A program made the translations under genes and the position numbers. Below the pieces are notes generated by a model. It was not told the origin of the DNA, did not search any database, and saw only the letters and a list, made by a program, of their open reading frames with translations. From positions 62,001-126,000 of the forward strand of contig NZ_JAIWPT010000010.1 in the NCBI RefSeq assembly GCF_021191695.1: 64,000 bases of DNA, in the 5' to 3' direction. Below are positions 5,083 to 43,578 of the stretch, piece by piece. Source of the DNA: Proluteimonas luteida (GTDB taxonomy: Bacteria > Pseudomonadota > Gammaproteobacteria > Xanthomonadales > Xanthomonadaceae). Position 1 is the first letter of the stretch. Each line of letters starts with the position of its first letter.

Positions 5083-5158
5083 GGGGCCATAGCTCAGCTG
5101 GGAGAGCGCCTGCATGGCATGCAGGAGGTCGGCGGTTCGATCCCGCCTGGCTCCACCA
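5083..5158 (+). tRNA. tRNA-Ala (anticodon GGC)
   Basis: A 76-base cloverleaf beginning GGGGCCA and ending with an encoded CCA. The anticodon stem CCTGC/GCAGG closes the loop ATGGCAT, placing GGC at 5116-5118. The D-arm (GCTC...GAGC) and T-arm (GGTTCGATC) are canonical, and the acceptor stem GGGGCCA pairs with TGGCTCC with one G-T wobble. Confidence 0.97.
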
Positions 5159-5204
5159 CATTTCCGGATCACAGGCCGATCCGGCGATGCCTGAAAGAAA
5201 CTGC

Positions 5205-5280
5205 GTCCCCATCGTCTAGAGGCCTAGGACACCACCCTTTCACGGTGGACACCGGGGTTCGAATCCCCGTGGGGACGCCA
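5205..5280 (+). tRNA. tRNA-Glu (anticodon TTC)
   Basis: A 76-base cloverleaf beginning GTCCCCA and ending GCCA with encoded CCA. The anticodon stem CCACC/GGTGG encloses CTTTCAC, placing TTC at 5239-5241. The T-loop reads GGTTCGAATCC. It lies 46 bases after tRNA-Ala in the same predicted transcript. Confidence 0.97.
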
Positions 5281-5435: not shown

Positions 5436-5515
5436 GCAGGTCGGCCCCACGCGGCCGACGCGCGCGGTGCCCGGATTCGCGAACTCCCTCCGTCGGGGGC
5501 GTTGCCCCGACCTAC
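5436..5515. repeat. REP pair (BIME), GTAG family A, short form
   Basis: Two hairpins face each other. The first reads GCAG then GTCGGCC...GGCCGAC; the second reads CGTCGGGGG...CCCCGACCTAC, the complement of a GTAG-headed hairpin. The GTAG tetranucleotide at the foot of a hairpin is the known mark of REP sequences recognised by REP-associated tyrosine transposases. The middle is shorter than in the other four copies. Confidence 0.75.
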
Positions 5516-5560
5516 GGTCGAGCCCCTCGGAATCGGGGACGGGCCGGAACCTTGTTCTTT

Positions 5561-5666
5561 GCCACGGATCCACGCGGATGTGCACGGATAGAGCAAATAC
5601 AGAGACCGAGGCGATGCCACGCCCCCGCTGCTTCTGATCCGCCTCATCCGCGTCCATCCGTGGCCG
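5561..5666. repeat. Palindromic element D (GCCACGGAT ends), short copy
   Basis: The left end reads GCCACGGATCCACGCGGATG and the right end holds the complementary pattern CATCCGCGTCCATCCGTGGC, so the ends are inverted repeats. The same ends bound the 40544-40714 repeat between the metH genes. Confidence 0.65.
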
Positions 5667-5712
5667 AACCGCTTTTCTTTGGTTCTTCTCCGATTCCCGG
5701 GATTCACCTGTC

Positions 5713-5826
5713 GTAGGTCGGGGCAACGCCCCCGACGCGGGACGCCCGGTCAGCCCGCATCGGCGGATCCCCCGGCATCTCGCAAACCCGGACACCACGC
5801 GCGTCGGCCGCGTGGGGCCGACCTGC
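5713..5826. repeat. REP pair (BIME), GTAG family A, reverse order
   Basis: Starts GTAGGTCGGGGCAACGCCCC and ends with the complement of a GCAGGTCGGCCCC-type hairpin (CCGACCTGC). About 114 bases, matching the copies at 9918, 10054 and 24177 but in inverted orientation. Confidence 0.78.
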
Positions 5827-9917: not shown

Positions 9918-10031
9918 GTAGGTCGGCCCCACGCGGCCGACGGGCGCGGTACCTGGTTCGCGAGGTGTTGCAGGCCTCGCCTGTGCGGCCTGGCCGGATG
10001 TTCCGGCGTCGGGGGCGTTGCCCCGACCTAC
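9918..10031. repeat. REP pair (BIME), GTAG family A, tandem copy 1
   Basis: Starts GTAGGTCGGCCCCACGCGGC and ends GGGGGCGTTGCCCCGACCTAC-type hairpin, giving terminal inverted repeats GTAGGTCGG/CCGACCTAC. 114 bases. Confidence 0.82.
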
Positions 10032-38496: not shown

Positions 38497-39426
38497 ATGG
38501 ATCTGGACGCTTGGTCCGCCCGCCTGAAGGTCCTGGCCGATCCGACCCGCGTGCGCCTGCTGGCGCTGCTGGAAGTCGAGGAACTGACCGTCGCCGAGCT
38601 GTCGTCGATCACCCGCCTGGCGCAGCCGCGCGTGTCCACCCACCTGGCCAAGCTCAAGGAAGCCGGCCTGGTCCGCGACCGCCGCGCCGGGGTGTCTGCC
38701 TACTACCGTTTCGACGACGCCGCGCTCGATCCCGCCCAGCGCGCACTGTGGCAGGCGCTGAGCACCGGCAGCGACGATCCGCTGCTGCGCCAGGACGCCG
38801 AGCGCATCGCCGGCGTGCTGGCGATGCGCGCCGCCGACCAGAACTGGGCCGACACCGTGGCCGGCGACATGGAACGCCACTACTCGCCCGGCCGCACCTG
38901 GGAAGCGCTGGCGCGCTCGGCGCTGCCGCTGCTGGAGACCGGCGACGTGCTCGACATCGCCTCCGGCGACGGCGTGCTGGCCGAACTGCTGGCCCCGCAC
39001 GCGCACCGCTACGTCTGCCTCGACGCCAGCAAGCGGGTGGTCGCCGCGTCGGCCGAACGGCTCAAGCGCTTCCGCAACGTGGAGGTGCGCGAGGGCGACA
39101 TGCACGCCCTGCCCTTCGACGACGCCAGTTTCGACCTGGTGGTGCTGATGCATGCGCTGACCTACGCCACGAAGCCGGCGCAGGCGGTCACCGAGGCCGC
39201 CCGGGTGCTGCGCCCCGGCGGCCGGCTGCTGCTGTCGAGCCTCAACCGCCACGGCCACGAGAGCGCGGTGCAGGCCTACGGCCACGCCAACCTCGGCTTT
39301 CCGGACAAGGAGCTGCGCCGCTTCGTGACCCGCGCCGGGCTGGAGATCCACAGCGCCGAGACCGTGACCCGCGAGAAGCGCCCGCCGCATTTCGAGGTGA
39401 TCTCGATCATCGCGAGGAAGCCGTGA
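38497..39426 (+). CDS. sahR: SahR-type ArsR regulator with methyltransferase-like sensor
   Basis: A 309-residue protein fusing an ArsR winged helix-turn-helix (residues 1-75: [36 protein letters not shown]) to a SAM-methyltransferase-like domain (about 120-305: [33 protein letters not shown]). This is the layout of SahR, a repressor whose methyltransferase-like domain senses S-adenosylhomocysteine and controls SAM-cycle genes; that role is inferred from the architecture and from metH directly downstream. The ATG at 38497 follows GGAGA inside a palindrome, suggesting autoregulation. Its TGA overlaps the GTG of metH1 (GTGA). Confidence 0.85.
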
Positions 39427-40541
39427 GCCGGGGTCCCCGGGGATCACTGCCGTGGCGCGACCCCGCGCGCGTGGGCAAGCTCGAAGCGGCGCTGGCCGAA
39501 CGCATCCTGGTCCTCGACGGCGCGATGGGCACCATGATCCAGCGCCACGGGCTGCAGGAGGCCGACTACCGCGGCGAGCGCTTCGCCGCCGGCTACGACG
39601 CGCTGTCCGCCGCCGACGGTCACGCCCATGGCCCCGGCTGCGGCTGCGAAGGCCACGACCAGCGCGGCAACAACGACCTGCTGACCCTGACCCGGCCGCA
39701 GCTGATCCAGGACATCCACCGCGCCTACCTCGAAGCCGGCGCCGACATCGTCGAGACCAACACCTTCAATTCGACCGCGGTCTCGCTGGCCGACTACCGC
39801 CTGCAGCACCTGGCGCGCGAGCTCAACCGCGAAGGCGCGCGGCTGGCGCGCGAGGCCTGCGACGCGGTCGAGGCGACGACGCCCGACCAGCCGCGCTTCG
39901 TCGCCGGCATCCTCGGCCCGACCAGCCGCACCGCGTCGATCAGCCCCGACGTCAACGATCCAGGCTACCGGGCGGTGACCTTCGACGACCTGGTGGCGAT
40001 CTACCGCGAAGCGACCGCGGGCCTGATCGAGGGCGGCGCCGACGTGCTGATGGTCGAAACCGTGTTCGACACCCTCAACGCCAAGGCCGCGCTGTTCGCG
40101 ATCGAGAGCGTGTTCGACGATATCGGCGCGCGCCTGCCGGTGCTGATCTCCGGCACCATCACCGATGCCTCCGGCCGCACGCTGTCGGGGCAGACCGCCG
40201 AGGCGTTCTGGTACTCGCTGCGGCACATGCGCCCGCTGGCGGTCGGCCTGAACTGCGCGCTCGGCGCGAAGGACCTGCGGCCGCATGTCGACACCCTGGC
40301 CCAGGTCGCCGACGCCTACGTGTCCTGTCATCCCAACGCCGGCCTGCCGAACGCCTTCGGCGGCTACGACGAGACTCCGGAGGACATGGCCACGGTGCTG
40401 CGCGAGTTCGCCGGGGCCGGCCTGCTGAACATCGTCGGCGGCTGCTGCGGCACCACGCCGGACCACATCCGCGCGATCGCCGAGGCGGTACGCGGCCTTG
40501 CGCCGCGGGTGCCGGTTCGCGACCGGGTCCAGGCGGCATGA
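39423..40541 (+). CDS. metH: Methionine synthase, homocysteine-binding subunit (split metH, part 1)
   Basis: A 372-residue homocysteine S-methyltransferase domain, equivalent to the first part of one-chain MetH. It starts [26 protein letters not shown] and contains [34 protein letters not shown] and [17 protein letters not shown]. The zinc ligands are Cys278 (NCALG) and Cys341/Cys342 (GGCCGTTP). It must act with MetH2 to methylate homocysteine. The GTG start at 39423 overlaps the sahR stop, so translation is coupled. Unusual: a His/Cys-rich insertion at residues 67-78 ([12 protein letters not shown]) replaces a short loop. A repeat element lies between its stop and metH2. Confidence 0.94.
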
Positions 40542-40543
40542 TT

Positions 40544-40714
40544 GGCCACGGATCGACGCGGATGAACGCGGATGAGAAGCGAAGCCCCGGCAGGAGCGCC
40601 CCATGGGCGCGAGCATGGGCGAGAGCGGAGATCGTTGTCGCGTCGATCGCGCCCATAGGGCGCTCCTACGAACGCTTTGCCCCTATCCGCGTTCATCCGC
40701 GTCGATCCGCGGCC
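40544..40714. repeat. Element D with a nested family-C REP pair, between metH1 and metH2
   Basis: The outer ends are inverted: GGCCACGGATCGACGCGGAT at the left and its near-complement ending GATCCGCGGCC at the right. Inside lie two inverted hairpins, GCAGGAGCGCC...GGGCGCG (40590-40612) and CGCGCCC...GGGCGCTCCTAC (40648-40669), the latter the complement of a GTAG-headed REP. Without the REP pair the element would match the short copy at 5561-5666. Confidence 0.75.
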
Positions 40715-40731
40715 AGAACGGACTCTCCCGC

Positions 40732-43578
<2,847 letters not shown>

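Follow-up and report, generated by a model that had tools for sequence, protein, structure and literature searches.

The 190-base spacer that separates the two methionine synthase genes of Proluteimonas luteida is best read as a non-autonomous copy of an inverted-repeat element, termed D, whose long form carries a GxxExxY (PF13366) gene for a predicted PD-(D/E)XK nuclease between the same arms; the probability of this reading is put at roughly 0.65. The spacer lies in the window, the 64,000-nucleotide stretch of this genome that was analysed (Table 1). It is called a non-autonomous relative rather than a full element because no GxxExxY gene lies between its arms (40542-40731), the sole match in the genome being the copy on contig C45.

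Methionine synthase is encoded in the window by two proteins: MetH1, for which S-methyl_trans is the sole Pfam match, and MetH2, which comprises the pterin-binding domain, two B12-binding domains and the activation domain. As the initial annotation stated, the sequence between them is almost wholly repeat; its 31-nt outer arms (97% complementary) enclose an inner GTAG pair. The inner inverted pair occupies 40579-40612 and 40647-40680 at 79%, and its GTAG-tagged palindromes form an inverted doublet of the REP type, the left unit reading GCAG. The metH2 ATG lies 16 bases past the outer arm, not the 18 first reported; the weak ribosome site described in the same place was confirmed, no GGAG, GAGG or AGGA word occurring from -18 to -5 before metH2 in the window. 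The further implication that the repeat had split MetH was rejected, as the metH1 stop precedes or overlaps the metH2 start in all 37 Luteimonas junctions read. The spacer repeat is an insert in an already split junction and did not itself split MetH, because 17 of the 37 junctions overlap, 20 hold varied inserts and the unit is absent from the other 36. Many genomes of other families have MetH open frames of about 1240-1330 residues, suggesting a fused protein there. The loop after GDDV in the MetH2 activation domain contains an in-frame palindromic repeat of its own, roughly 50-60 residues long (about 42770-42960; CCCTTCCCCCGCGCGCGGGGGAAGG ... CCCCACCCCTCCCCCGCGG); among 30 Luteimonas read, this loop is short in most and long and variable also in G010, G034, G022, G035, G028, G015 and a few more.

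Table 1. Features of the metH region and the compared insertion sites. Positions without a contig prefix refer to the window.
Feature	Position or locus	Strand	Details
metH1 (homocysteine-binding half of methionine synthase)	39426..40541	+	translation; Pfam PF02574, 2.2e-98; start codon not settled
metH1 stop	TGA within ATGA 40538-40541 (stop 40539-40541)	+	
metH1-metH2 spacer, 190 bases	40542..40731	+	counts as an insert where 17/37 Luteimonas have the 4-base NTGA overlap
metH2 (pterin, B12 and activation domains)	40732..43578	+	Pfam
D left arm, built of CACGGATNNA-type units, each about 10 nt	40543..40573	+	inverted-repeat scan
D right arm	40685..40715	-	inverted-repeat scan
Inner GTAG-type REP, left, GCAGGAGCGCCCCATGGGCGCGA	40590..40612	+	reads GCAG
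Inner GTAG-type REP, right, GTAGGAGCGCCCTATGGGCGCGA	40647..40669	-	
Second D copy	5561..5664	.	20-nt arms at 90%; different, REP-free middle
REP doublets away from D	C22:10883-10961, C12:27234-27310		window genome
REP doublets away from D	C48:167271-167344, C22:66967-67058		window genome; units with 2 mismatches
Nuclease site, D element present	L159, L178, L183, L188		
Nuclease site, decayed copy	L165		
Nuclease site, empty	L162, L164, L167		8-nt overlap
Nuclease site, gaps of 1-4	L160, L172, L184, L187		
Nuclease site, DUF559-type elements	L161, L163, L176		
Nuclease site, other sequence	rest of the 30 loci read		
D site 1 (G019 stretch)	empty in G016, G036		one arm left in G071
D site 2 (G019 stretch)	empty in G072, G016, G036, G071		

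A MetH2 search matched 60 of 61 genomes, and junctions were read in 40, of which 37 are Luteimonas, the window genome (G000) included. The D site is empty in the 17 Luteimonas junctions with the 4-base NTGA overlap, and in the 20 spaced ones the distance to the closest in-frame start is 39-713 bases. Two of these spacers contain another gene; in L045 and L047 (G004, G025) this is a short dehydrogenase-like gene, identified by eye. The comparison of sister spacers that the initial annotation proposed found the window's D plus REP unit at 0 of 36 other Luteimonas junctions, and the whole unit is thus not conserved among these relatives. When 18 spacers were scored against the window's D arm with 200 single-base shuffles each, both ends exceeded all shuffles in six (G000, G001, G028, G003, G019, G013) and the left end alone did so in G030. 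In an inverted-pair scan of these seven, five had pairs; G001 and G030 had none, and their D-like remains, which have other middles and start 2 bases past the metH1 stop as in the window, appear decayed or doubtful. Other junctions hold different palindromes, judged by eye to be of the CCCTCCCC type and the CGTC type. A tree built from the 40 metH regions intermingles junctions with overlap and junctions with inserts in a clade of 11 around the window species, G000, G001 and G030 being interspersed with overlap species; therefore, a single gain with loss and repeated gain fit alike. A check for target duplication found GCATGA at both spacer edges, yet these words contain the stop and start codons, and no duplication was seen by eye at two other compared D sites.

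D is a dispersed family. A D 17-mer with up to 3 mismatches has seven matches in the window, which are overlapping units of four arms, versus 0.95 expected and a count reached by 0 of 100 shuffles; with up to 2 mismatches, the 4.1 Mb genome holds 38 matches and none of the reversed pattern. A 9-kb stretch of G019 contains two further D sites whose occupancy varies across Luteimonas, some having a copy there and others an empty site; the filled copies contain D inside D.

The long form of D was recognised on contig C45 of the window genome, where D arms flank an ORF matching NCBIfam TIGR04256 (GxxExxY); this ORF and its L. terricola relative score 127 and 133 bits with Pfam PF13366. The gene occurs in 8 of 52 Luteimonas genomes. 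Seven of the eight occupy one shared site, judged from the flanks, with D arms on both sides, amid enoyl-CoA hydratase-like and acyl-CoA carboxylase-like genes (names taken from sequence, not from a family search); the eighth (L075) lies elsewhere and has CTCGCGAAGGCGCGAAGG-type arms. The site was surveyed through a carboxylase search, which matched 52 of 52 genomes, and 30 loci were read, revealing filled, decayed and empty states (Table 1). In the C45 copy itself (L077, G000 C45:178925-179367), the GxxExxY frame meets no stop codon ahead of the right D arm and runs on across it; six other aligned Luteimonas rows differ in this. Genomes with at least 10 D-arm matches number 9 of 52, and six of these nine carry a D-type gene versus one of the 43 others (G036), a comparison that ignores relatedness. 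The association has exceptions: no GxxExxY gene was matched in G028 (32 D matches) or G018 (10), a decayed copy is all that G016 (12) has, and G036 has the gene yet only 2 D matches.

A structure model of GxxExxY built from 26 sequences (pLDDT 94.8, pTM 0.86) has a PD-(D/E)XK fold. Its best Foldseek match is 4ic1 (SSO0001; 2.3e-5), followed by the LHK and lambda exonucleases and Hjc resolvases (8e-4 to 3e-3); VIA Z scores are 9.6 to 4ic1 and 6.8 to Hjc 1gef, the latter within reach of unrelated folds. D73, E83 and K85, the D...ExK residues, are invariant in the 26 sequences, and fold and residues together mark the modelled protein as a PD-(D/E)XK nuclease. A sequence search of the PDB returned a single, unconvincing match (E 0.33), and with PADLOC one of two proteins matched Cas4 weakly. 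From the model, the natural guess would be a nuclease that processes junctions or ends; PD-(D/E)XK folds are by themselves not transposases.

The arrangement extends well beyond Luteimonas. A scan of named genomes yielded 80 GxxExxY loci (the best 80 of 570, ranked on similarity to the query from Luteimonas) from more than a dozen phyla, judged by record title. For each ORF, the upstream 450 bases were aligned with the downstream 450 in reverse complement, and the scores were compared with 100 first-order shuffles. Matched ORF-spanning inverted arms exceeded all shuffles in 67 of 86 testable loci, that is 60 of 79 named loci (L111 lacked flank, L072 was left out, and L071 and L080 are the same gene) and 7 of 7 in Luteimonas; 19 of the 79 named loci have no arms above shuffles, and a few of the 60 positive ones, such as L113, lack visible units. 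The same procedure found arms at 0 of 28 loci of the control family UPF0102, a small gene present in 28 of the 31 genomes of the same set. These 31 genomes were chosen from the 80 loci after the arm result, mostly for clear arms, so the 29 of 30 GxxExxY loci with arms among them, which overlap the earlier loci, is biased upward; 60 of 79 gives a fairer estimate. Arms of at least 24 nt have their best lag at 8-10 in 67 of 74 cases, and the spacer's own arms (31 nt, 97%) are likewise inverted arms of 8-10-nt units. The unit sequences differ among loci (CACGGATNNA, GACAGGATTNA, CGCCAAGGA, CACAGAGGA and others). GxxExxY is chiefly chromosomal, since 8 of 72,556 plasmid records match.

Two further ORF families were found in comparable settings. 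GC-rich palindromic arms that match each other enclose DUF559 (PF04480) genes at 27 of 30 loci in Luteimonas; in the 31 chosen genomes they do so at 20 of 21 full-length loci (first-order shuffles; 7 of 28 rows excluded as partial). These genes (L219-L248, L341-L368) sit within matched CCCTCCCC/GGGGAGGG-type palindromes, and similar palindromes stand alone at the metH junctions of other species. The four-helix ORFs of TIGR02436 (L311-L340), which we take to be the ORF of rRNA intervening sequences, have matched inverted arms in 25 of 29 loci from the 31 chosen genomes, one of the 30 being too short and left out; the arms consist of 7-nt tandem units, with the best lag at 7 or 14 in 14 of 17. 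An excerpt of PMC12907096 places DUF559 in Vsr-like PD-(D/E)XK endonucleases. Together, these data point, with slightly better than even confidence, to a cross-phylum class of minimal selfish elements, in which one protein of about 125 residues (GxxExxY, DUF559 nuclease or the TIGR02436 four-helix protein) would lie between matched arms with a family-characteristic unit (8-10 nt, GC-rich palindrome or 7 nt); each subfamily would own its arm sequence and spawn ORF-less hairpin followers, the metH spacer being one.

The TIGR02436 arms also lend some substance to a different account, in which D lives as a parasite of the transcript, comparable to the 23S rRNA intervening sequence: RNase III would cut the stem out of the mRNA and render the insertion harmless, as it excises the Coxiella intervening sequence according to an excerpt of PMC4990558. 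The ORF family and arm period of TIGR02436 differ from those of D, and the reading would account for tolerance of the insert, not for its spread; it is unlikely, if not negligibly so.

Spread by another enzyme, for example a RAYT, is the core of a second account, in which the nuclease gene, a passenger, frequently inserts into palindromes that are already present. D loops do contain REPs, further palindromes and further D copies, and G028 is rich in D without a nuclease match. Set against this, the arms track the nuclease tree: the arm motif requires 10 changes versus a shuffled mean of 32.0 (minimum 26 of 300), and the 64 RAT/RAG arms alone require 3 versus 21.2 (minimum 16), with 75 of 96 proteins labelled and 21 of 96 arms unlabelled. 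Co-inheritance of gene and arms alone is enough to explain this match; recognition of the arms by the nuclease would be a step beyond it. Arms also differ by nuclease subfamily, by eye, even within a single genome. Divergent copies with visibly different arms occur in two genomes that have ten matches apiece (18 read; arm scan without shuffle control); median identity among copies is 0.31 and 0.35, the best being 0.63, and because of this divergence no recent burst is indicated. Other ORF families, moreover, bear arms of other kinds. A passenger gene is thus considered improbable.

About equally improbable is a third account, in which the concentric layout arises by hairpin template switching (quasi-palindrome correction), not by successive insertion. 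It would fit the centre of the REP doublet at metH, which is 0.5 base off the D centre, and arms that match within a copy yet differ among species: at the shared nuclease site, 37 of 42 comparisons, indels included, place an arm closer to its partner in the same copy than to its counterpart on that side in another species. Nonetheless, REP doublets and D exist separately. Convergent REP doublets away from D span 74-92 bases versus 80 at metH, and other D copies of the window genome have no REP inside; with up to 2 mismatches the REP pattern has 36 genomic hits versus 30 for the reversed control, so weight is placed only on the 14 hits with 0-1 mismatch and on paired hits. In other nests the centres lie 1 to about 39 bases apart, and near-centring is not very improbable because residual loops are short in several of them; the concentric layout was accordingly dropped as proof of a special mechanism.

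Nesting of the REP doublet in D, on the other hand, is supported, because the two are also found apart. The pair of GTAG-type REPs reported in the middle of the spacer is present, as is the D copy first placed at 5561-5666, which ends at 5664. This copy is enclosed by a perfect GTAG REP inverted pair (5491-5516 / 5712-5737), whose REP recurs at 10008, 10146 and 24267; with the REP pair inside D at metH, nesting therefore occurs in both orders. D loops elsewhere hold other repeats, including further D copies, and a triple nest, in which D encloses a GTAG REP pair that itself encloses a second D, occurs in G003 and G019 (L310; L277 site 2). The initial annotation's proposal that the REP pair entered an existing element thus stands as nesting; a literal insertion into the metH copy is less secure, since no sister was found with the same D lacking the REP there.

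The insert may also matter to its host. The spacer RNA folds at -138.2 kcal/mol into a nearly end-to-end single hairpin, whereas shuffled sequences average -79.5 (z -13.4) and none of 200 was as stable; at gathering score, Rfam matched two tRNAs only in the whole window (5083-5277), and nothing in the spacer. An SD-like word precedes metH2 in 12 of 17 overlapping versus 2 of 20 spaced junctions (base rate 0.10), so insertion probably breaks the translational coupling of metH1 and metH2. An effect of the spacer on MetH1:MetH2 expression is plausible, and the insert would then alter that ratio. That the spacer is a host regulatory hairpin, kept to set the MetH1:MetH2 ratio or mRNA half-life, is very doubtful despite the stable fold and the weak start site downstream, since the unit is absent from the other 36 Luteimonas junctions, the 4-base overlap is common and D arms also occur at unrelated genes.

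Under the preferred reading of the spacer as a non-autonomous D copy, the GxxExxY nuclease would act in trans on D hairpins, whose arms are extruded in single-stranded or cruciform DNA, and would thereby spread ORF-less copies, in the way proposed for RAYT transposases and REPINs. Such copies would survive where both neighbouring genes retain their stop and start codons, and the loops of their hairpins would gather further palindromes. At metH, a likely consequence is that metH2 loses its coupling to metH1 and gains a long stem cleavable by RNase III, which could make MetH1 and MetH2 separately tunable. We infer both the mobility of D and the driving role of the nuclease. Weighing against this model, no target duplication or transposition event was made out, copies are divergent, 19 of 79 loci are armless, very few plasmid records match, and G028 and G018 hold D without the gene. 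As annotation names GxxExxY and DUF559 are common, yet little is known of what the proteins do. If these and the four-helix family do drive inverted repeats, many unexplained intergenic palindromes in bacteria would gain an owner, and REPIN-RAYT would become one case of a wider way of life. Luteimonas offers a direct test system, in which D copies number in the tens, there is one nuclease gene, and sister species have filled and empty sites.

The nested look of the spacer alone is ordinary, because an excerpt of PMC3733652 already describes REP dimers (GTAG or CGTC) nested in larger palindromes in A. variabilis and H. neapolitanus; the difference is that the outer palindrome D also occurs alone and with a nuclease gene of its own. 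The new part is a nuclease gene between matched inverted ends in many phyla, with ORF-less relatives, which was not found described in the open-access literature searched. Nothing there linked GxxExxY or DUF559 with inverted ends, which does not prove absence in print. In the excerpts seen, GxxExxY appears in a remark on CRISPR neighbours and a virus gene table, and PF13366/PDDEXK_3/TIGR04256 in a count of expanded families. Open-access searches for D sequence words (an 8-mer being unspecific) and for split MetH (the term 'meth' being unspecific) gave nothing apparently relevant among the matches listed.

Among known systems, the 23S rRNA intervening sequence with its S23 ORF (excerpt of PMC4990558) is a small selfish unit that sits in a transcript and contains an ORF, and the D family likewise has a small ORF between inverted ends. 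It differs in having an S23-type protein in rRNA rather than a nuclease; the TIGR02436 loci have 7-nt units, and the spacer lies between protein genes, not inside an rRNA gene. MITEs (general knowledge and an excerpt of PMC3733652) resemble D in being short and ORF-less, with matched inverted ends and a longer ORF-bearing relative, whereas the long form of D holds a putative nuclease rather than a recognised transposase, its middles vary among copies and no target duplication was made out. The closest functional parallel is REPINs with RAYTs (excerpts of PMC3116915 and PMC3733652), which share with D many intergenic inverted hairpin doublets and an enzyme gene tied to the repeat family. In D, however, the enzyme is a predicted PD-(D/E)XK nuclease rather than a tyrosine transposase, the arms mostly consist of 3-4 units of 8-10 nt rather than one short palindrome, and the GxxExxY gene itself lies between the arms. 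The different arms of each GxxExxY copy within one genome, in turn, recall the pairing of one RAYT with each REP family.
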